A program made the translations under genes and the position numbers. From contig JAKZAN010000004.1 of the NCBI GenBank assembly GCA_023053545.1, positions 11,346,001 to 11,410,000 on the forward strand: a stretch of DNA of 64,000 nucleotides, read 5' to 3'. This DNA is from Lepidurus packardi (Eukaryota > Arthropoda > Branchiopoda > Notostraca > Triopsidae). Below the pieces are notes generated by a model. It was not told the DNA's origin. It ran no database searches and worked only from the letters and a program-made list of their open reading frames with translations. This document shows, piece after piece, positions 21,546 through 61,400 of this stretch. Each line of letters opens with the position of its first letter. Position 1 is the stretch's first letter.

Positions 21546-21597
<52 letters not shown>

Positions 21598-24500
21598 ATG
21601 GGGAAGAGAAGGTTTTGAATCAAAGTTCCAGGTCCCAATCCCGCACGGATGCATTGATCTTATGTATTACACACATGTCGTAAGAACATATCTGTGCGGA
21701 CGAAACGGTGCCACCCTTCGTGTTGCCATGTGCACTTTCCTGATGATTCGAATCTGGTTACGTGGAAACAAAAGGGGGGAAAGAAGAAATAGAGGAAACT
21801 CTTGGACGTGAGGGGTTAAGGGTAGAGCTGTGTGGGTTGCGGTTAATAGTTAAAACTTTCACGAGTTTTTAACTCTTTTACGTCCTACCCCCGGAAACTG
21901 GAAGAGCGACTTGGAATTCGGTGGTCGACAGGGTAGCTGACAGAATGGACTTGTACTTTGGCGGACAGATCCAGGATCTTTATCGGACAGACTAGTGGCT
22001 TCCTCTACTGGAACCAGTCACCGGGGAGGTTTTTTTTTATTATTTTATTTTATTGTTTTTGCGGTATGATTCCTTGATAGGAGGGCTTTTAAACTGCGGT
22101 ATTCTAAGAACCATGGAATTTGTTCCAAATTATTGGCAGTAGCCGTTCAGGAGTTCTTGGCATACAAACTTTGGGTCGTGACGTCACGCCCGTGGCATGG
22201 CGTGGCTTACGGCGCTTGTTGACATCTTGTTGTTTACTTCCGTCCTTTCACAAAATAGGAAACACTTTTAAACCTGTCACGGTCTGATTTACAACTGAAG
22301 TGGACGGGAACAAATTTCGTGAATTTGCCATGTCAAATTGGTAAATAAAAACACAAGTACCCATCTTTCTTCAATCTCACTACTAGTTTACCAGCCAATG
22401 CTGCATATTTTCAACGCCGGAACCCAACGAATTGTAGTGCATTACTTGTCAGGACTAGAGTATATAGCTTTTCCAGGCTCTGGAACTTTATATTATGGTC
22501 AGGGCAACGACTAGCTTCTTATTGGTTTTGCGTTATGATTCATTGTTAGGAGGGACCTTTAAATGGCGGAAACTGTACTTGGTAGTCTTTTTGAAATCCA
22601 GCTTCTAGTTTCCCTAGCCACGCTTCAAATTTTCCACACGGAACCCAACGAATTGTAGTGCATTACTTGTCAGGACTACAGTATATAAGTTTTTCAGGCT
22701 CTGGAACTTTATACTGTGGTCAGGGCAACGACTAGGTTCTTATTTTGCGTTATGATTCATTGTTAGGAGGGACCTTTTAAATGGCGGAAACTGCGCTTGG
22801 TAGCCTTTCTGAAATCCAGCTACTAGTTTCCCTAGCCACCGCTTCAAATTTTCAACGGGGGAATCCAGCGAGTTTTAGTGCATTACTTGTCAGGACTAGA
22901 GTATATAGGTTTTTCAGGCTCTGGAACTTTATACTGTGGTCAGGGCAACGACTAGGTTCTTATTGGTTTTGCGTTATGATTCATTGTTAGGAGGGACCTT
23001 TAAATGGCGGAAACTGTACTTGGTAGTCTTTTTGAAATCCGGCTACTAGTTTCCCTAGCCACGCTTCAAATTTTCCACACGGGAACCCAACGAGTTTTAG
23101 TGCATTACTTGTCAGGACTAGAGTATATAAGTTTTTCAGGCGCTGGAACCTTATACTGTGGTCAGGACAACGACTAGGTTCTTATTGGTTTTGCGTTATG
23201 ATTCATTGTTAGGAGGGACCTTTAAATGGCGGAAACTGTACTTGGTAGTCTTTTTGAAATCCGGCTTCTAGTTTCCCTAGCCACCGCTTCAAATTTTCCA
23301 CACGGGAATCCAACGAGTTTTAGTGCATTCCTTGTCAGGACCACTGTGTATTAGTGCAGGCTCTGAAACCTATACTGTGGTCAGGCGTCAACGCTAGAAT
23401 AAGACATTAGAGGAAACCATAAGAGGGGGGTCCAGTCTTTAAAAAAAAGGAAGTTTGTTTTAAGTAACGTCTTTTTATTTGGGTCGTTTTAGTAATGGCT
23501 ATACGCATATAACACACGTACTCGTACTTGTACCTGGGGGTCTCTATCTATATATTCCGTATGCAGTTTGGGTTCGGTTGACGCTCTCTATCTTTGCTTG
23601 GCGAAGAAGGCGCGGGGATAATTATGGCAGTCATCCCGGCAGTATAGTGGTGGCCGATGTCTCCTTTTCATAGCGTGCTGATTTGCATGCGTTTGCGTTA
23701 CGTGGTGTGCTGTATATAGCATTATAGACAAAAGACTAACAGAGGGCGCGGGGGTGGGGGTGGGGTTGGGTTGCGTGGTCAGATAAGAGAGAAAACCTCG
23801 TAGCTTGGTGGTGGGATGGTGCTTAGGGTGGGAACCAAATACCGGGTTAGTTGCTGTTTGGAAAAGTAGAACGGGTGGAAGCGAGATGGTTTTGTATCAT
23901 ATAAAGAAGGGGTTGCCCCCAAAACTGGAGTTGGTAACACATCGATCGACACACCCCGGAGCGGGGGGTGGGGGGACTTTCCCGTTGCAGAGTTACGACG
24001 ATGAATTGGCACTATTTAACCTCAAGGAAAAGTCTTGACGGACGATCCCCTTGAAAAGGGAAGAAACATATCAAATAAAAACGAAATAATAATAAAAAAA
24101 GAAAACGTCCGAAAGGAAGGTGGGAGGTAAAAGACAAGGGAGTTGGGAAGGAGGGAACCCTTGAGAAAAAGAGGCGTACCCAATCGATGGCAAAGCATGA
24201 TAAAGTGAGTGAATGCGAGCCGGAGGAATCTAATTTCTCTTCATTGAATTTCCACCACGGCCTTGTTAACGTTGTTAGACAGTTTAGTTTAGAGGTGACG
24301 TCATAAATCTTAACCCGAACCCTTTTGCTTTTCTACATCTTTTTTTCTTTTTATAAATCTTTTCTTTCGCTTGCTATTGGTATTCCAGGTTGGCAGTCAT
24401 ATCATGTTGTCAGCGTTGCATCCTCATAGTCAATTATCCTCCCCGCCGGTGTCCAAACGCTGGTCCGTTCCCAGCGAATCGGAGCAAGTGTACCGCGAGC

Positions 24501-27500
24501 ACAAGCGAGAACGAGAGGAATCGTGGCAGCGGGTCGAAGAGGAGCTCCGGAATAACAACAACGGGCTTGGGATCGGTTTCTCCCGGGTGAGTGCGAGTCC
24601 CGGCTTCCGCATAGCTGCGTCGGCCAACGAACGAAAGAGTGTCAGTAGCGGCAGTGAAGCCGGGGATGCAGCGGCAGTGGGCCCGAAGGGTCCCACCGCA
24701 CCGTCACCGGCGGCAGGCCCACCTCCCTTGCCGTCTTCGGCCAGCACCGGACCGGTGCATCCGCTGCTTTTATCTCACGGATTGGCCCTGCAGCAGCACG
24801 TGCAACAACTGCTCCAGCAACAGATGCTCACACCGCAACAGTTGCAGAACTTGATGCAGCAACACCAGTCCTTTTTGCTGCAACAACAACAGGTAAAAAA
24901 AAAAATTGTACCTTTTTTTTTAACTTGATTTATATTGTAATATATCGTATTTTTATTTTTCTTATTAATTTTACTGTCTTTTTATTTTATTGTATTTACA
25001 TTATGGTAAGTATTTGTATTTACTCTAAGTATATATAAAGTTTTTACTGTAATTATTGCAAATTATCTTTATATAAATATATTTTTTATTAATTTTATTG
25101 TATTTTTATTAAATTATGGTAAGTATTTGTAAGTATTTACTGTAAGAATATAGAAAGTATTTACTGTAATTATTGCAAAGTATCTTTATATAAATATATT
25201 TTTTATTAATTTTATTGTATTTTTATTATTTTATTGAATTGACTTTTTGTCATAATGAATTAGATTGTAGTTTTATTAATTAGATTGTATTTTTATTAAT
25301 TAGATTGTAGTTTATTTTGAAAGTGAATTCCTATTGATGCATTCGAAGGGTTTGGTGGTGATTTTTGTACTTGAAATTGGTTTTTATTTTGTTTGCGTTA
25401 AATTTTGAAGTAATATGAGAATTTTTAAGTGAATTCCTACTGATTCTATAATTTTAAGAGAATTCCTGTTGATGTATTCGAATGGCTTGCAATGATTTCG
25501 TAACTTGAAATTGTGTTTCTATTCTTGACGGTGCAATTGAAGCAAACCTTGGCGGATTTGGGTCGGAAACAACTCGAGTCGGCCATCCAGCAGCTCCAGG
25601 AGCAGTTGCAGATCAACTTGATCCAGCAGACGCAACTCAATCAAGGCTCGGAAGCCGAGAAGAAGAAGAGTGCGGCGTTAGTGCAAACTTTAGCCATGCA
25701 ACAGCATCATCTCATGCAACAGCTCCAGATCGCGCAACGGCATTACATCATGTCGCTCCAGCATATGAATACGCTTACTCCCAACGGAGCCAGTGGAGGA
25801 GCAGGTAAAGATTCCGAAGGCAACAACCATGCTTGGAAACATTCCCAGAGTGTGGCTTCTGAGTCACCCGATTCCAGCCCTGGCGCACCGTCTTCCAAAT
25901 CCGCACCTCATTTAGATGGTAATCAGTTCTGGGGTTAGGAAATGTGTTCAAAAACCTTTTTTTTTATATGCTTAACTGGCTTTCATTCCCAACGCTTTGA
26001 TATATTTCGTTATTTTTCGTTTTTAATTCTTACAAATTCTTAAAAAATTCTTAAAAATGAGATTTATAATTGTAATGTTAATCGCATGGAAATGTGATCT
26101 ATTTTGTTATTTTTCATTTCAATTTCTTGAAAATTCTTGAAAATTCTTCAACATGAGAAAATTTATAATTGTAATGTTAATCGCATGGAAATGTGATCTA
26201 TTTTGTTATTTTCCATTTCAATTTTTGAAAATTCTTGATTATTTCAATTCTTGAAAATTCTTAAAAATTCTTCAACATGAGAAAATTTATAATTGTAATG
26301 CTAATCGCATGGAAATGTGCTCTATTTTGTTATTTTCCATTTCAATTTTTGAAAATTCTTGAAAATGAGAAAATTTATAATTGTAATGTTAATCGCATGG
26401 AAATGTGATCTATTTTGTTATTTATTATTTCAATTCTTGAAAATTCTTAAAAATTCTTGAACTTGAGAAAATTTATAATTTTAATGTTAATCGCATGGAA
26501 ATGTGATCTATTTTGTTATTTTCCATTTCAATTTTTGAAAATTCTTGATTATTTCAATTCTTGAAAATTCTTAAAAATTCTTGAAAATGAGAAAATTTAT
26601 AATTGTAATGTTAATCGCATGGAAATGTGATCTATTTTGTTATTTTCCATTTCAATTTTTGAAAATTCTTGATTATTTCAATTCTTGAAAATTCTTAAAA
26701 ATTCTTGAAAATGAGAAAATTTATAATTGTAATGTTAATGGCATGGAAATGTGATCTATTTTGTTATTTTTCATTTCAATTTTTAGAAAATTCTTGAAAA
26801 TTCTTGAACATGAGAAAATTTATAATTGTAATGTTAATCGCATGGAAATGTGATCTATTTTGTTATTTTTCATTTCAATTCTTGAAAATTCTTGAAAATG
26901 AGAACAGTTATAATTGTAATATTAATGGCATGGAAATGTGATCTATTTTGTTATTTTTCATTTCAATTCTTGAAAATTCTTGAAAATTCTTGAAAATTCT
27001 TGAAAATGAGAACAGTTATAATTGTAATATTAATGGCATGGATATTTTTGGGGTCAGGATTTCGAAGTGAGCATCTCAATGGAAATGCTGGGAACGGCAC
27101 CGACAAAAGTTCAATCGGAGCCGGAAATAGCCATACTGGGAAAGAAGATCGGCCTCATCCATTGTACCATCATGGCGTTTGTAGATGGCCCGGCTGTGAA
27201 ATCCCATGCGAAGATTTTACGGCTTTTTTAGAGTGAGTGGGCGTTTTGTTTTATTTTATTTTTCAAGAAAATCCGATCTTTTTTTGCCTTTTTTTTGGGT
27301 GAAAACTCGTTTGGTTTCCGTGTTCCTTTTCGTGCAAGGAAAGATTTTTATGCCACAATTCAACATGGCTTGTATTTCGGTTATAGGCACCTGAATACCG
27401 AGCACGTGCTGGATGACCGTACGACGGCCCAAGCACGAGTGCAAATGCAAGTCGTATCCCAACTGGAACTACAACTTCAGCAGGAAAAGGACCGGCTGAG

Positions 27501-30500
27501 TGCCATGATGGAGCACTTGCATCGGCGTCAACTGACGGACAATACCAACCAGCCGGTTCCGCCGCCTCAGCCGCCGAGGGAACACCACCACCACCAGCTC
27601 TCTTTACCCACCGCACCTGCAGCGTTGCCACCCCTTTCGCTCCCGCTGCCGCCCCCTTTACCCCCACCTTTACCCTCAGCGTCGTCGTCAGCCATGACCA
27701 ATTCACGACTCTCTTCGCCTCCGGGCCATTTACCTCCGCAGCGTATGTCACCCTCGCTGGCCGCCTTGGTTTCGGCCACTTTTCAGCGCGGGGGTAACGT
27801 GCTAGGCTTACCTCCGTCGCCCCATCATCTCACGCCTCCCACCCCTAACATGAGCCATGCCGTACGTCGAAGAGTCTCGGATAAGCCCCCCATGTCCATC
27901 AGCATGGGTAAGTGAAGCCTTTTTGGCAAGTTCTTTTACCTCGCTTGTCGAGCAGTGTGGAGTTTTTATCTCATTGAAGATGTTGAAATTGTTTTAATAA
28001 GAGATAAGGATCATTGTTGGGCAAGGTAAGAATACCTGTTCTACGTTAGGTTCCCCCTTTGATGAAATTCGGTTACGCAAACGAAGCTTTACGGAGCGCT
28101 CAGCTATGGATATCTCAGAAGGTAACGTATTTAGACAATAAGAAAGAAAAACGTTGAAAAGAGGGGAAAAGTTAATGCGATTGGCGGGGGGCGGTCGTAA
28201 TGATGGTGGGACACAAACCTCTCTTCGATTAGTCTCTCACACTGTTAAATTGTCTGTCCCAACTTGACTTGAGCGTCGTATTTTCTCGTTAGCTATCCGG
28301 CTGTCACTTGCAACCCAACTGATTTAATTTACTTAGTTTGTGACCTTTTCTTGGGCAAACAAACAGAAAAGAAAGTTGCCTGATTCTTACTGGATTTTTC
28401 TCCTTTTTTCTGTCTTTTTTCTCGGGGCTTCTCTGTCTATGTGGCCTATGCACACTTCCAGGACTCCCGTATCTGTTGGATAGGGCAGGACTGGATGTGC
28501 AACAAGGTAAAAAAATAAATAAAAATACTTTAACACATTTTTTTACCTGGAAAAACTTTGCTATTTTACGCATTTCGTGCGTGAGACTGTGATTCGGATT
28601 TTTAGTAATTCGCGTACTGCTTTCTTTGTACAGAACTCCATCGAAATCGGGAATTTTATCGCAATGCTGATGTCCGTCCGCCTTTCACATATGCATCTTT
28701 AATACGTCAAGTAAGTCTGTGTCCAAGAAACAAGAAAAAAAACAAGAAACGTTCATTAAAGCCATGGTGAACTGCAAATAGTTAGCATTTCTGGCAAGAG
28801 ATGGCACTTGTGTCATACCCATACATCGTGCAACACGTTCTCTAGATTTAGTTACAAACGTATGAAATGTATGACGGAATCAAAAAGGACACTAGTGTGT
28901 CACTGTCTAACAATGAAGTTTTCATTTTTCAGATAGTGGAGGGAAAAAAAGTGCAAGTTTTAGTTAACCTAACCTAACCTATCCTATTCAAACTTAACCT
29001 AACCTAATGCGTTTCCAATTCAACAACCAATTTTCAAATCGAGAGACATCTGTTTGCCATTCTTGTTCGGGAGAACGTTTTGCAACAATAATACACAGTT
29101 TTATCTCCGAGTTCCGAAACCGGAGAACCTGTTGATATGAGAATTATACAACTTGAAACAAATTTTAAAATTACAAAAATTACAAAATGAAAACAAATTT
29201 AACGATATAATTGAACAATTCTTTTTTAAAGTATCTTAATACAAATATCTTAAAACGCTGCGTCAAAACATTCATATATATGATTTATTTACTATTTTCA
29301 TAACTTGAATAAGTCTAAATAAAGCACATATCTAAATGCTTGACGCAGTGTTTTAAAATATCTGTATTAAGTATTTTCAAAAAGAATTTTTCAATTATAT
29401 CGTTCAATTTCTTTTAAATGTATGTTTCCAGTTTTGTTACAAGCTGTAACAAGCTGTATCCTCGTGATATAGGGGTTGGTCAGCAGTGCCATCTTGTGAC
29501 AAAATCGATCAACTACTTGCAGTTCACCTTCGCCTTAACCACCCAAACAAGCGTTTCGGTGTTCCTTTGCTTGTTTTAAATACCAGAAAAAAATCTATAG
29601 TTCCACAAATTTCTCATTGCAACACCCTGTTAACGCACTATAATCTAGGCTATCGTGGAAGCTCCAGATCGCCAATTGACGCTAAATGAAATCTACACGT
29701 GGTTCCAGAACACGTTTTGCTACTTTCGGCACAACGCTGCAACTTGGAAGGTAAGAAATTGTCTCCATCATTCCACTTTTGAGTTCGTTTGACTGTTCAT
29801 TAGTACAAAGAACCCCAGTAACGCCCCCGGAAGGAGGGTTCAAACTAATGTCTAGGCGCGAAATTCAAATGTTTAAGGTCGAATTTTGGGTGGTTTTATT
29901 TTGGATTTATTTTTTTTTCACGTAGTTTGATTCTGTTCTTAGTAGTGTTTTTATTTTTTGTTTAAAAATCACCCCAGAATGCCGTTCGCCACAACCTGAG
30001 TCTGCATAAATGCTTCATGCGCGTGGAAAACGTCAAAGGCGCCGTATGGACCGTGGATGAAGTTGAATTCCATAAAAGAAGGCCTCAACGAGCTGCACAG
30101 GGGTAAAGAAACAAAAAAAAAAACGCACAGGCACCTAGCAATCCGAGCTAACTCATCTTATACTGCCAAGTTTTCCGATTCACCACCCTATTATATCACT
30201 TTTTTTTCTAACATCTCTAAATTCAAAAAAAAAAAAAACAATCCGCACTTGATTTTTCACTTTTTCACGCACCAACTGTCTTGAGATTGTTTCTTCATAT
30301 TGAACTACTCCTTACATTAATTTCTTCTAATTGTTATTCTCATAAGGCTAATGAAATTCCGTGGCAGCTTGTACTTCCCATTTCTTCACATAATTCTGTA
30401 ACTCGCCAGCACTTTTTTTGCTAATCGTTCTATTTACTTGTGTGTGGTTTGGCGAATAACCCCCTTCGCATTCTTTTTCTTACTGAATTGAGAATTTTTT

Positions 30501-32865
30501 TGAATTCCCCCTTATTTTTTATACGTTATTTTTTTATACAATTCGGGAAAAAAAACTCCGCCGAGTTTGGTGAATGGCTTGGATTTTTGACCAGGAAATT
30601 CCTGCAAAGTAACCCCCCAAAAATGCGAGACAATTTGCCTACTTTTGGGGCGTTTTAAGTGTGAATGACTCGCCCAGATGTTTTTTTTTCTTGTTGGGTT
30701 TGTTTTTCTTCTTTCTCTCTCTTCTTCTCTGTTCTCTCTCTCTCTCTCGTCCTCCAGAATGCCATTCGCACCAACTTATCCTTGCACAAATGCTTTGTGC
30801 GCTACGAGGACGACTTCGGCTCCTACTGGATGGTTGACGACGCCGAATTCGTTCGCAGAAGACATTTGTCCCGGGGTCGACCCCGTAAATTTGATGCTTC
30901 ACCTTCTTGTTCCCAGTCCTTAAATTCGCTTCATCATTTAGCAGCCTATTCCCACCATACTAACCACCAGTCCACGGCTGCTGGACCTAGTCCTAACAAT
31001 CCTAACCATCATCAACATCCCCTGCATCCTGCGCCCAACTTCGATTTCCAGGCTGTGTCCGCTCTGTATACTCTCGGAGCAGCTTTTCCCCGTAATTCCA
31101 CCCCTACAGCGCCCAATTCGCACAGACCTGTGGCACAGTAAGCAGCAAAACATTTCTTTTAGCAGAAAGAGCAAAAAAAAAAAAAGATATTATGAGTATT
31201 TTTATTAATTTTTTTGTTTACTTTGGAGGCACCACAAACATAGAGGCAGAACTTTTGTTTAGAAAATTAGAGTCGAGTCCATGTGTTCGGTTCGAAACTT
31301 TTTGATTGTCCTCCCATTTCCCCCCCTTCATTTGAACCATCCGGAGATCACGAAGCAATAGAGCTTCTGCATTTTGGAAAGTGAGGTGTCCATAGCCCGC
31401 TTTTATTGACATTAAAAGGGAAAAAAGTGAAGTGAACTGGATTTAAGTTCCCATTGCAAGTGTTTTCTCGAGCTGGGGCCGCATAGTCTTGGCTGTCGAA
31501 TGATTCGTGCTTGGCTACGCATGGCTTAGTGGCACACTGATTCGAGCATGTAATTTTGCATGATTTCAAGGTGAAAACTGGTCTGACTTTGGTATCTCAA
31601 TACCTCGCCGCATCCAACACTTGGACTTATCTAGCCTTCTTGTGTACTTCCTAAAAAGAAAAGACATTTTTAATTTAACATGGGAAAGTCCCGAGGAAGT
31701 TAAAATATAATGTGTTTCTTGTGCGGTAGGGGGATGCAATCCAAGAGTCCTACGTTGACGCCAAGTCCGACGTTATATGGTGAAACGCTGAATGCTAGCT
31801 TACAAGTAAAAATGATTTACCAGATTTTTAATTATTTATTTATGTTTCTATGCTTATATTTTATGTAGTTTTTACTTTTTATTATTTATTTTGTTGTTAT
31901 TAGAAGACTAATTATTCATTTTAGGCGGCTTTGGCGGAGAGTAACTTGAATTATATACAACGTTCCGTGAATGACAGTCCGGTGAATTTACCTGAAGATA
32001 ATTCCAGCTTAGAAAAGTAAGAATACAAACATGTCCAAGAATTCTGTTCGAAAAATTTCAAAGCCAATGTTCTGAAGAGGTATTGTAATTATTATGTTTT
32101 TGTATCGATAGTTTACAAGACACGTGTAGTTATTATGTTTTATGTTTTTGTATCGATAGTTTACAAGACAATGTAATTATTATGTTTTTGTATCGATAGT
32201 TTACAAGATAGTGTAATTATTATGTTTTTGTATCGATAGTTTACAAGATACGTGTAATTATTATGTTTTTGTATCGATAATTTACAAGACACGTGTAATT
32301 ATTATGTTTTATGCTTTTGTATCGATAGTTTACAAGACAGTGTAATTATTATGTTTTTGTATCGATAGTTTACAAGATAGTGTAATTATTATGTTTTTGT
32401 ATCGATAGTTTACATGATACGTGTAATTATTATGTTTTTGTATCGATAATTTACAAGACACGTGTAATTATTACGTTTTTGTATCGATAGTTTACAAGAC
32501 AGTGTAATTTATGTTTTTGTATCGATAGTTTACAAGACGCGCCCATGCGTTTAGTATGCCGTCCTGGCGTAGGATCCCCGGTAAAACGTCCGAAGCTAGA
32601 AGAGCCGTTAGGGGACGGTATGGGCATGGTGTCCCAACCAGAACTGAAGAAAGAAGACGAGGCTGAGAAAGACGGCGACAGCACTTTGTTACGATCTCGA
32701 CTCGAGTTTTATCGACAGGAAAGTAATGAGGAGAAACTTAGCGCTCATTACTTGAACCGCACGTTAAAAGTGGAAGTGGATACCTTGAACCATTCGCCTC
32801 CGGCAACCACCAACGACTTTTACAATGCAACGCCCAATTTGAGTGCGGCCACAAAAGTGGATTAA
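4570..32865 (+). CDS. FoxP: Forkhead box P transcription factor
   Basis: FoxP proteins are nuclear DNA-binding factors that dimerise through a zinc finger/leucine zipper and bind DNA with a forkhead domain. Coding exons: 4570-4701, 24389-24892, 25543-25918, 27058-27232, 27387-27907, 28050-28121, 28462-28506, 28634-28710, 29649-29750, then either 29978-30102 or 30758-31137, then 31730-31805, 31925-32016, 32529-32865. All junction phases agree, giving about 877 or 962 residues. Visible parts: a Gln-rich stretch (about 172-250), a C2H2 finger (C379, C384, H397, H402), a leucine zipper at about 410-440 ([13 protein letters not shown]), the forkhead from about 622 ([12 protein letters not shown]), and a C-terminal LNASLQAALAES segment shared with vertebrate FOXP2. 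The first ATG follows CAG/GATGTGAAG; an upstream exon could add residues. The exon 3 acceptor has a weak pyrimidine tract and is the least certain boundary. Confidence 0.95.
5542..5573. repeat. T32 homopolymer followed by CAG
   Basis: Thirty-two consecutive T residues run directly into CAG/GAAAG, which resembles an extreme polypyrimidine tract with an acceptor. No coding exon follows it, so I treat it as simple sequence. Confidence 0.9.
5680..7025. repeat. Satellite of about 88 bp with a higher-order trimer
   Basis: About 15 copies of a unit containing TATCGTGTGACACTC, a run of A residues, AAATTACCAAATTAAGCATT and GGTTTCAATGGCAGT. Landmarks recur every 85-93 bp. From about 6114 onward three variants repeat together as a block of about 264 bp, seen twice and starting a third time. 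This indicates recent amplification of a trimer. Confidence 0.92.
7965..8635. repeat. Nested tandem repeat (short unit inside about 116-159 bp units)
   Basis: An inner unit of 13-15 bp (AAGAATCAGAGTT and variants with CAGACG) is repeated inside a longer unit marked by GAGCTTTAAGTTGT and AGCATTAGCTAATGTT. The longer marker appears five times, spaced about 116, 158, 159 and 151 bp, so the inner array changes copy number between outer units. Confidence 0.9.
10110..12440. repeat. Complex satellite, about 2.3 kb
   Basis: Two related modules alternate. One carries CCCTCTTCCCATCCTACGAA and TTCTAGAACTATAAGGTTTT; the other carries CAGTTTACCCTTTTCGC and CTTCAATTTGGGTTAATGAA. The CTTCCCATCC landmark recurs about twelve times with spacings clustering near 121-133, 204-210 and 270 bp. 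Module shuffling with internal deletion explains the mixed spacing. Confidence 0.9.
13124..13175. repeat. Perfect 22-bp-arm hairpin
   Basis: The left arm 13124-13145 (CCTTTCCACC then GCACCGCACCG) is the exact reverse complement of 13154-13175, with an 8-nt spacer. GCACC repetition lets the arms pair in more than one register. It lies in FoxP intron 1 with no linked ORF. Confidence 0.9.
13600..14920. repeat. AT-rich satellite of about 85 bp
   Basis: Units contain TTTTAGTAGTTTTAATTGTA, TTTTTAATTGTGGTCTC and TTTCTTTATTATTATTTTAG, repeated about ten times with insertions of TTTAGTAGAA-type sequence. The translated ORFs in it are low-complexity products of the repeat. Confidence 0.9.
16440..17470. 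repeat. Tandem repeat of about 208 bp, five copies
   Basis: Each unit contains TACATTTTGCTACGTGCGTG, GGGAATAGGCCGATTTAGCT, ATGTTGGAAC(C/T)TCGAATTT and long T runs. Copy ends lie near 16590, 16795, 17005, 17215 and 17435. Differences between copies sit mainly in the T runs, which suggests recent expansion or homogenisation. The similar predicted peptides in this block are repeat artefacts. Confidence 0.93.
18095..18310. repeat. Direct duplication of about 155 bp
   Basis: A segment with GGTTTCGCAGTGAGGTGACA and AAGGATATCTTCCAATGTGA is repeated near 18265-18310 with minor changes (GGTTTCACAGTAGGGTAACA). Confidence 0.7.
18580..19610. repeat. Tandem repeat of about 204-214 bp, five copies
   Basis: Units contain CATTCCAAACCTCCC, GAGTACCCGTACGGGTAAGA, CAATACACTACAGGCCAAAC, TTCACGACACGGTATATTCC and CATCTCTTACCCACAAAGCG. 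Within each unit ATCTCTTACCC and GGGTAAGAGAT are inverted relative to each other, about 70-80 bp apart, so every copy can form a stem. The array ends directly at the TIR element starting at 19607. Confidence 0.92.
19607..19751. mobile_element. 145-bp MITE-like element with 18-bp terminal inverted repeats
   Basis: The ends 19607-19624 (GCATGCCATCTAGAGCTA) and 19734-19751 are inverted repeats matching at 17 of 18 positions. The interior has clustered CCTAA and AACCTAA words but no ORF. I see no clear target-site duplication. It abuts the last unit of the preceding array. It looks like a short non-autonomous DNA element, superfamily not assignable. Confidence 0.6.
20958..20985. repeat. T28 homopolymer
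   Basis: Twenty-eight consecutive T residues in FoxP intron 1. Confidence 0.9.
21547..21596. repeat. G50 homopolymer
   Basis: Fifty consecutive G residues, flanked by GGGAATAGGAAAC and TATGGGGAAGAG. Such a tract can form intramolecular G-quadruplexes. Its true length is uncertain because most sequencing methods misread long G runs. Confidence 0.85.
22040..23395. repeat. Tandem repeat of about 225 bp, five copies
   Basis: Units contain TTATGATTCATTGTTAGGAG, GGCGGAAACTGTACTTGGTA, TAGTTTCCCTAGCCAC, TTTTAGTGCATTACTTGTCA and GTGGTCAGGGCAACGACTAG. The GTTAGGAGGG marker lies near 22530, 22755, 22980 and 23203, with a diverged first copy near 22065. The first interval contains an inserted or diverged segment with TGACGTCA (22179-22186) that resembles the element at 62.6-63.1 kb. 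Confidence 0.9.
24296..24303. promoter_or_regulatory. CRE-type site TGACGTCA upstream of FoxP exon 2
   Basis: An exact CREB/ATF consensus octamer lies 86 bp before exon 2. Occupancy is unknown. Confidence 0.4.
24930..25330. repeat. AT-rich intronic duplication in FoxP intron 2
   Basis: A segment with ATTATGGTAAGTATTTGTA, AATTATTGCAAA and TCTTTATATAAATATATTTT appears twice, followed by three copies of an AATTAGATTGTA-type unit. It fills most of the intron between exons 2 and 3. Confidence 0.75.
26030..27045. repeat. Tandem repeat of about 100-125 bp ending at the FoxP exon 4 acceptor
   Basis: About nine units contain ATTTATAATTGTAATGTTAA, CGCATGGAAATGTGATCTAT and TTGTTATTTTCCATTTC with variable runs of GAAAATTCTT. 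The last, partial unit (TAATATTAATGGCATGGATA) runs to within about 15 bp of the acceptor at 27055-27057. Confidence 0.92.
28966..29008. repeat. Interstitial CCTAA (TTAGG-type) run
   Basis: Three perfect AACCT units at 28966-28980 are followed by a diverged spacer and AACCTAACCTAA at about 28996-29007. TTAGG is the ancestral arthropod telomere repeat, so this is a short telomere-like tract inside a FoxP intron. Confidence 0.7.
29195..29410. mobile_element. Foldback/MITE-like element with about 77-bp arms
   Basis: The left arm 29195-29272 (begins AAATTTAACGATATAATTGA, ends GCGTCAAAACATT) is an imperfect reverse complement of 29334-29410 (begins AATGCTTGACGCAG). A spacer of about 60 bp separates them. 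There is no ORF. It lies in the FoxP intron before exon 9 and its transcript would form a long hairpin. Confidence 0.8.
29978..30102 (+). CDS. FoxP: FoxP alternative forkhead exon A (canonical helix 3)
   Basis: This exon completes the forkhead domain with [13 protein letters not shown], then [16 protein letters not shown], nearly as in vertebrate FOXP. It starts in phase 0 after a CCCCAG acceptor and ends in phase 2 at a GG/GTAAAG donor, the same phases as exon B, so either exon can join 29649-29750 to 31730-31805. If the donor is not used, translation stops at once (GGG TAA), giving a protein that ends just after the forkhead. I infer mutually exclusive use because inclusion of both would shift the frame and duplicate helix 3. 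Confidence 0.92.
30758..31137 (+). CDS. FoxP: FoxP alternative forkhead exon B (divergent helix 3, long His/Pro/Ser tail)
   Basis: This second version of the forkhead C-terminal half reads [13 protein letters not shown], then [17 protein letters not shown], a basic RGRPRK patch and a tail rich in Ser, His, Asn and Pro. The His of RHN in recognition helix 3, equivalent to FOXP2 H554, is Thr here. The W and F core positions are kept, so the fold should persist with altered DNA contacts. The acceptor follows a long CT-rich tract (about 30705-30757) and the donor is CA/GTAAGC. From memory, insect FoxP also has a paired exon of this type, which I treat as homologous. Confidence 0.92.
32080..32528 (+). 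repeat. Minisatellite built from the FoxP last-exon splice acceptor
   Basis: Units of 38-48 bp contain TATTATGTTTTTGTATCGA followed by TAG and TTTACAAGA. The true exon begins at 32529 with the same TTTACAAGAC after the same TATCGATAG, so the unit spans the intron-exon boundary. There are ten upstream copies; eight end in TAG and two in TAA. Copies 2-5 and 6-9 look like a duplicated four-unit block. Confidence 0.93.
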
Positions 32866-33442: not shown

Positions 33443-33461
33443 CCCCCCCCCCCCCCCCCCC
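33443..33461. repeat. C19 homopolymer
   Basis: Nineteen consecutive C residues (G-rich on the minus strand) in the FoxP 3' region. Confidence 0.9.
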
Positions 33462-61080: not shown

Positions 61081-61400
61081 CTTCTCAATACTTGAAATCA
61101 ATTTTCAAACACATAGATGGCGTGATTTTAAATATATAATAATAATAATAACAACAATAAAAATATTAACAAAATAATGGTGTTTTATAATATAACGTAC
61201 TTTGTGTGAAGTATGTATAATACAATATATGTACACAAGTACATAGTAAAAATTCCGAGTAGATCACTAAAACTACACTTTGATCTGAGCCAAAAGGCCG
61301 AGAAGCGATAGGTCACTCAAACACATTTTTTAGTACTCAATACTTAATGTTAATTTTCAAACCGATAGATGGCGTGATTGTAAATATATAATAGCAATAG
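61081..61400. repeat. Direct repeat pair flanking a U2-like fragment
   Basis: A segment with CTCAATACTT, AATTTTCAAAC and TAGATGGCGTGATT(T/G)TAAA followed by ATATATAATA occurs at about 61083-61148 and again at about 61332-61400, 250 bp apart in the same orientation. The interval contains AT-rich DNA and the U2 5' fragment. Confidence 0.75.
61272..61309 (-). pseudogene. U2 snRNA 5'-end fragment
   Basis: Read on the minus strand, 38 nt match the conserved start of spliceosomal U2 RNA (ATCGCTTCTCGGCCTTTTGG, then AGATCAAAGTGTAGT) with about one difference. Similarity stops just at the branch-point-pairing region, where GTAGTA is GTAGTT, and no Sm site or later stems follow. It is a truncated copy, either a retroposed fragment or the head of a U2-derived SINE. 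Confidence 0.75.

Follow-up and report, generated by a model that had tools for sequence, protein, structure and literature searches.

Minisatellites across intron–exon borders

The closest described counterparts of the repeat analysed here come from amphioxus. 'Mirages' are minisatellites that lie across intron–exon borders, and the sections of PMC3087553 devoted to them describe such arrays in the globin genes BflGb6 and BflGb9. The BflGb6 mirage contains the 3' end of an intron and the 5' part of an exon in units of 150-160 bp, with six and three units in two haplotypes (PMC3087553), and the units of the Adh3 mirage are 10-72 bp long (Canestro et al. 2002 NAR 30:2871, as cited in PMC3087553). 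But how is a gene with such a border still spliced? According to the same sections, RT-PCR and cited Adh3 data suggest that regular splicing is undisturbed, but as far as these sections show the RT-PCR was not designed for rare decoy junctions (PMC3087553), which counts against the explanation preferred below.

Other cases can be compared with the present array, which lies at the last intron–exon border of a FoxP gene within a window of 64 kb (the whole stretch of DNA analysed). In intron 4 of trout irak3 the first 15-17 nt of the exon are repeated four times directly upstream of it, an arrangement like that in FoxP; the part of PMC6763605 that covers them does not say whether each repeat takes in an acceptor AG. 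The duplicated 3' splice sites of Reed and Maniatis, as excerpted from PMC9225289, likewise set proximal against distal acceptors in series, but those sites were experimental and the FoxP array is natural. Tandem duplication also creates splice signals in Drosophila (PMC2891723, in the passages concerned) and reportedly in potato (PMC4974935); in these cases a new intron is gained, whereas the FoxP array multiplies an existing acceptor. For a human interferon-induced transcript, a minisatellite is reported that likewise multiplies one of the splice signals of its gene, in that case the donor (Turri et al. 1995 NAR 23:1854). The repeated sites of the FoxP array are acceptors instead. The human transcript is reportedly 6-16/IFI6. 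Two further papers that mention a minisatellite and a splice acceptor, PMC3039753 and PMC3549977, show no minisatellite of acceptors in the excerpts considered.

The FoxP gene and its last intron

The gene model is complete and holds a FOXP-CC domain (E 8.3e-33) and a Forkhead domain (E 3.6e-27, both for form a) within one open reading frame, and the structures nearest to the form a forkhead are FOXP4/P2/P1. The true acceptor was placed from the frame and the exon chain. A second FoxP tail was looked for and none was found.

24404..32865, + strand: FoxP gene, coding model; open frame of 828 aa (form a) or 913 aa (form b)
24404-24892, 25543-25918, 27058-27232, 27387-27907, 28050-28121, 28462-28506, 28634-28710, 29649-29750, + strand: exons common to both forms, 5' part
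29978-30102 or 30758-31137, + strand: alternative exon of form a or form b, respectively
31730-31805, 31925-32016, 32529-32865, + strand: exons common to both forms, 3' part
32017..32528, + strand: last intron, 512 nt; donor AAA/GTAAGAAT
32084..32538, + strand: minisatellite spanning the intron–exon border; 11 copies of a 38-48-bp unit, 169-bp higher-order period
32520..32528, + strand: true acceptor, TATCGATAG
32529..32865, + strand: last coding exon; 112 residues including a split codon, then TAA at 32863; first 9-13 bases repeated in the array

Anatomy of the array

Eleven copies of TATCGATA[G/A]TTTACA make up the array, ten of them decoys upstream of the true acceptor. Its tandem units stand head to tail and fall within the roughly 10-100 bp of minisatellites, and each copied 3' splice site comprises a T-rich tract, TATCGATAG and the exon start. 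Spacings between copies are 48/40/40/41/48/40/40/41/41/38, and the 169-bp blocks 32084-32252 and 32253-32421 are 97% identical. The last base of the AG or AA falls at 32111, 32159, 32199, 32239, 32280 (TAA), 32328, 32368, 32408, 32449 (TAA) and 32490, and at 32528 in the true site. How closely do the copies follow the exon? Nine of the ten decoys reproduce the first 9 exon bases exactly (decoy 8 matches 8/9), and 9 to 12 of the first 13 are matched. The preliminary description had proposed that a minisatellite made ten copies of the acceptor in front of the last FoxP exon, eight of them with the AG kept, and these positions confirm both points.

32103..32111, + strand: decoy acceptor 1 (TATCGATAG); would leave a 95-nt intron; 29 residues, then stop
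32151..32159, + strand: decoy acceptor 2; 13 residues, then next TAG
32191..32199, + strand: decoy acceptor 3; 13 residues, then next TAG
32231..32239, + strand: decoy acceptor 4; 35 residues, then stop
32272..32280, + strand: copy 5, AG lost (TATCGATAA); 29 residues, then stop
32320..32328, + strand: decoy acceptor 6, slightly lower score; 13 residues, then next TAG
32360..32368, + strand: decoy acceptor 7; 13 residues, then next TAG
32400..32408, + strand: decoy acceptor 8; 27 residues, then stop
32441..32449, + strand: copy 9, AG lost (TATCGATAA), one 169-bp period from copy 5; 19 residues, then stop
32482..32490, + strand: decoy acceptor 10, 38 nt before the true site; 21 residues, then stop

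Copies 5 and 9 sit at equivalent positions of consecutive 169-bp blocks, so the simplest account of their AG loss is one mutation that was later copied, and this is probably what happened. It had been suggested that the two TAA copies reflect drift or selection; with both looking like one copied event, selection on AG retention is unsupported.

TATCGATA occurs 11 times in the window, always inside the array and more often than by chance (mean 0.64 in 100 shuffles), and a two-unit DNA query against the 108.6-Mb assembly, with very common words skipped, returned six matches, all in the FoxP array. A dispersed satellite was rejected, as the unit search matched this array alone. Among the 253 acceptors predicted in 304 kb (253 acceptors and 248 donors were kept after excluding predicted exons scoring <3), just one besides that of FoxP has a duplicate, and a single one; to count as a duplicate, a stretch had to lie in the acceptor's own intron and match it at 22 or more of 28 positions. 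A test for arrays near acceptors gave a weak P of 0.02; it was one-sided, included FoxP and counted overlap as near.

Border-duplicating minisatellites are already known from amphioxus, and FoxP adds one more. Like the BflGb6 mirage as excerpted, the array is a tandem repeat of an intron 3' end plus an exon 5' part, both taken from its host gene, and many units, though not all, keep the splice signal (8/10 AG). Near-identical units are found in both, and the Adh3 range of 10-72 bp includes the 38-48 bp seen here. Relative to the amphioxus mirages as described in those sections, the FoxP array differs in its host, its ten extra copies and its 169-bp higher-order period, and because the exon it borders is the last one, splicing to a decoy would shorten the protein. 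The amphioxus mirages have been shown to be unstable in length (PMC3087553, in part), whereas the FoxP array is known from one assembly.

Reading frames after decoy use

What would a decoy junction do to the protein? All ten decoy frames reach a stop after 13-35 codons, with loss of the 112-residue last-exon segment. This bears out the expectation of a missing C-terminal tail of about 110 residues. The more specific claim, a stop after about 13 codons, holds for four of the eight AG-bearing decoys (2, 3, 6 and 7) and fails for the others, which run longer. The TAG of the next decoy serves as the in-frame stop because the unit length of 40 is 1 mod 3. Forms that re-enter the true exon in frame were considered for decoys 1, 2 and 8, which are in frame by length, and rejected, as they stop first. 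Is the early stop a matter of design? Among 5000 simulated sequences with the dinucleotides of the array, the median is 9 codons to a stop and 93% stop within 35. Early stops are thus the null expectation for such AT-rich sequence, and design was rejected.

Strength and context of the acceptors

Six of the eight AG decoys have the same 23-base scored window as the true site and the same score (3.51, the 64th percentile among 163 training acceptors); the remaining two score 2.13 and 2.66. GC of the next 100 nt is 0.23-0.26 after decoys 1-8 and 0.56 after the true site, and the minimum among 222 predicted exons, 0.31, lies above the values for decoys 1-8, although this yardstick is biased by the choice of the comparison exons by codon usage. 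Decoy 10 is the sole AG decoy with exon-like GC downstream (0.44), which counts against dominance of the true site. In a human set, acceptor choice was not dependent on GC differential (PMC9225289, in the excerpt concerned). Splicing to decoys 1-4 would make the intron 95-223 nt long, and in introns of such size proximity favours the upstream acceptor, according to the same excerpt (PMC9225289). Of 287 introns predicted, the 220 for which both flanking exons were retained have a median length of 86.5 nt, and 13.6% of them are 512 nt or longer. The arguments on decoy use therefore conflict, proximity pointing to decoys 1-4 and exon-like composition to the true site. The choice of 32529 by the gene predictor is not independent evidence, because 11 FoxP acceptors, the true one among them, served to seed its acceptor matrix, and because it applied a coding penalty to arrays.

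Competing explanations

Which of these sites is used? We consider it likely that the array is a 'mirage' minisatellite in which the true site is dominant and any decoy use is minor. A tandem duplication straddling the last FoxP intron–exon border would have taken up an acceptor complete in itself (a likely branch site with T-rich tract, AG and exon start), which slippage or unequal exchange may then have multiplied to ten extra copies, in part by duplicating the 169-bp four-unit block. The coding exon follows the last copy alone, and decoy use, if any, would be minor and yield tail-less FoxP. Splicing probably goes mostly to 32529, as this site alone leads into the exon-like sequence of the coding exon and known mirages seem not to disturb splicing. 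Leakage could instead be substantial, with the near decoys, favoured by their proximity, or decoy 10, favoured by the exon-like sequence around it, taking a considerable share and much FoxP being tail-less. Six decoys with a local score equal to that of the true site, short decoy introns and the proximity rule (PMC9225289, as excerpted) speak for it, as does the AG-free stretch of 28-40 nt before each AG copy (26 nt at the true site), which leaves room for its own branch site. However, GC downstream of decoys 1-8 falls below that of all 222 predicted exons, and the amphioxus mirages are said not to disturb splicing; these passages of PMC3087553 moved the odds from leakage to normal splicing, and leakage on this scale seems unlikely, if still worth considering. 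Might the eleven near-identical acceptors even form a length-dependent splicing dial, array length setting a ratio of full-length to tail-less FoxP that matters or is selected? The architecture permits a length-set ratio, as raised in the preliminary description: with such a putative dial, each extra unit would lengthen the true intron and add a competitor, shifting FoxP to the tail-less form, and unequal exchange would make heritable isoform-ratio variation in one step. Mirage length differs between amphioxus haplotypes (PMC3087553, same sections), and truncated FoxP forms are described in flies and bees, though they arise by intron retention (PMC6372147, in the part on these forms). The dial nevertheless appears very improbable, with early stops that match the null expectation and two AG losses that look like a single event.

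Could the splice-site content be incidental, the array being a putative factor-binding cluster that works at the DNA level? TATCGATA resembles what we take to be the DREF/BEAF-32 motif of flies, 11 perfect palindromes lie within 455 bp, and the motif occurs 21 times in 304 kb against 8.7 expected from base composition: 11 in the array, six in a second cluster and four elsewhere. At 640-860 bp beyond a predicted start codon, the second cluster (window-relative 82717-82940) falls inside what was predicted as a first intron. But the shorter CGATA occurs less often than expected (186 vs 327.5), and duplication of the FoxP acceptor is in itself enough to account for the array, which leaves this idea with little credence. 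Near-identical blocks are also hard to assemble, and the BflGb6 mirage appears misassembled in the draft (PMC3087553, in part), so the copy number could be an assembly error. Against this, the array sits in a 12.9-Mb contig and its units vary, as those of real arrays do, through point changes and by 8 bp in length; we see only a slim chance of such an error.

Implications and other observations

Although striking as a mirage, the FoxP array probably does little harm. It extends a phenomenon tied to cephalochordates in the sections of PMC3087553 on mirages to the FoxP gene of an animal whose assembly spans 108.6 Mb. The array also parallels, in nature, the duplicated-acceptor experiment: seven of its eleven copies share one scored window, two lack the AG and can serve as internal controls, and the context becomes exon-like along a gradient, a setting where the trade-off between proximity and exon context could be read.

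A tRNA scan of the window found no tRNA, and an Rfam scan gave one U2 match, of no bearing on the array. The intron folds modestly better than its shuffles (z -2.36), 3 of 100 of which fold equally well.

FoxP and the array in its last intron

The FoxP gene lies complete on the + strand of the window (C3:11346001-11410000; assembly of 108.6 Mb in 344 contigs), with 12 exons joined. Its open frame encodes 828 aa with the forkhead-ending exon 29978-30102 and 913 aa with 30758-31137. The 828-aa form carries a FOXP-CC domain (E 8.3e-33) and a Forkhead domain (E 3.6e-27), and the structures nearest to its forkhead are FOXP4, FOXP2 and FOXP1. The two alternative exons (125 nt, VENVKGAVW type; 380 nt, YEDDFGSYW type) share the same phase, so the tail exons can be joined to either; the donor of the longer one, CA/GTAAGC, overlaps an in-frame TAA, and this exon can thus also terminate the protein. 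A short interstitial TAACC (TTAGG) array, the arthropod telomere repeat, sits inside a FoxP intron (28965-29007). A second FoxP array covers 25998-26997; by eye, its partial last unit continues to about 27043, leaving ~15 nt to the acceptor that opens the zinc-finger exon. The 3' end of the gene is as follows:

32017-32528, + strand, last intron of FoxP
32529-32865, + strand, last coding exon of FoxP

The last-intron array spans 32084-32538 (Tandem Repeats Finder; best rows 32084-32537 and 32140-32538). Upstream of the true acceptor its region is repeated ten times, as the preliminary description had observed. Nine of these ten decoys reproduce the first 9 exon bases exactly, and agreement over the first 13 is 9 to 12 bases. 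The array has a period of 169 bp, made of units of 48+40+40+41; blocks one and two are 97% identical, and blocks two and three 95% over the first 60 bp. How did two copies come to have TAA instead of TAG? They are units 5 and 9, separated by one period, and position 32129 is G in block one and A in both blocks two and three. The simplest account is a single change copied along with the block.

Are the decoys competent acceptors?

A home-made gene predictor was used to train an acceptor matrix on the 304 kb that surround the window. The true acceptor scores 3.51 (64th percentile among 163 training acceptors), more than 98.8% of the 17762 + strand AG dinucleotides. Its 23-base window recurs unchanged in decoys 1, 2, 3, 4, 7 and 8; decoys 6 (2.13) and 10 (2.66) score lower, and the equal scores of copies 5 and 9 are meaningless, as the matrix leaves the AG itself unscored. 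Each AG copy follows an AG-free stretch of 28-40 nt (26 at the true site), which would allow every one of them a separate branch site. If so, and if the scanning model described in an extract of PMC1431707 holds, the choice among acceptors would fall at branch-site selection.

What would a decoy produce? Joining exon 31925-32016 to decoys 2, 3, 6 or 7 gives 13 residues and a stop at the next TAG. The stop proposed earlier after about 13 codons is right for these four and wrong for AG-bearing decoys 1, 4, 8 and 10 (29, 35, 27 and 21 residues, respectively); copies 5 and 9, which lack the AG, would yield 29 and 19 if used. All decoy frames stop at 32554 or earlier, against 112 residues from the true acceptor, which bears out the predicted loss of a tail of about 110 residues. 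Early stops need no explanation, since they also arise in simulation (5000 sequences with the dinucleotides of the array; median 9 codons; 93% within 35).

Use or by-product?

Substantial leakage of splicing to the decoys draws on the Reed and Maniatis proximity rule, by which the upstream of two acceptors is preferred; as described in an extract of PMC9225289, the rule is valid under intron definition, not exon definition, with a switch cited at an intron length of 200-250 nt. Splicing to decoys 1-4 would give introns of 95, 143, 183 and 223 nt, and the 220 predicted introns have a median of 86.5 nt, with 13.6% reaching 512 nt; taken together, this favours the decoys. Exon context favours the true site: GC over the 100 nt downstream is 23-26% for decoys 1-8, below every one of 222 predicted exons (lowest 31%), and 56% for the true site (decoy 9, 34%; decoy 10, 44%). 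The same extract reports acceptor choice independent of GC differential in a human set. We consider such leakage unlikely, and a tuning role for the array highly improbable.

Mirages, the amphioxus minisatellites that span intron-exon borders, offer a precedent (PMC3087553, in extract). Units in the Adh3 gene are 10-72 bp long; in mirages many repeats, not all, keep the splice signals. The FoxP array, known here from one genome sequence, agrees in the two features compared, units that join intron end and exon start and a splice signal kept in many copies, and departs in none. Those authors took their RT-PCR and the Adh3 data to suggest that regular splicing is undisturbed, allowed for cryptic use, and proposed that mirages can give rise to new introns. 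PMC2915984, PMC3618361 and PMC2572611 cite, by its title, work on a human minisatellite that carries multiple splice donors. Most likely the FoxP array is a by-product of tandem duplication, and normal splicing probably dominates.

Other arrays and neighbouring features

The 304 kb hold 52 merged tandem arrays (9.9% of the sequence). Among 253 predicted acceptors, that of the last FoxP exon is matched by ten similar copies within the same intron (at least 22/28 bases matching), and one at window-relative 207509 (gene L021) has one tandem duplicate, exon bases included, 290 nt upstream; the remaining acceptors have no similar intronic copy at this threshold. Two of 248 predicted donors have one or two similar copies. 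A minus-strand predicted donor at window-relative 144442 (L015) has one intronic copy with 26/28 bases and the GT kept.

Fourteen of the 52 arrays lie inside predicted introns; 5/14 reach to within 20 nt of the acceptor or past it (P 0.02 against random placement, one-sided, FoxP included), and 0/14 come that close to the donor. Only the FoxP array runs past the acceptor AG. The other four end 7-12 nt short of the acceptor border, as if growth were tolerated up to this border and not across it:

window-relative 64883, intronic array in predicted gene L007
window-relative 140464, intronic array in predicted gene L014
window-relative 179253, intronic array in predicted gene L018
window-relative 204504, intronic array in predicted gene L021

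Six TATCGATA palindromes cluster in the predicted first intron of L008 (window-relative 82717-82940). A U2 snRNA match at 61180-61309 (minus strand) is perhaps a degraded copy, as it covers 130 nt of a 192-position model and barely passes the Rfam threshold (50 bits vs 46). Non-coding DNA also holds homopolymers of 50 G (21547-21596) and 19 C (33443-33461).
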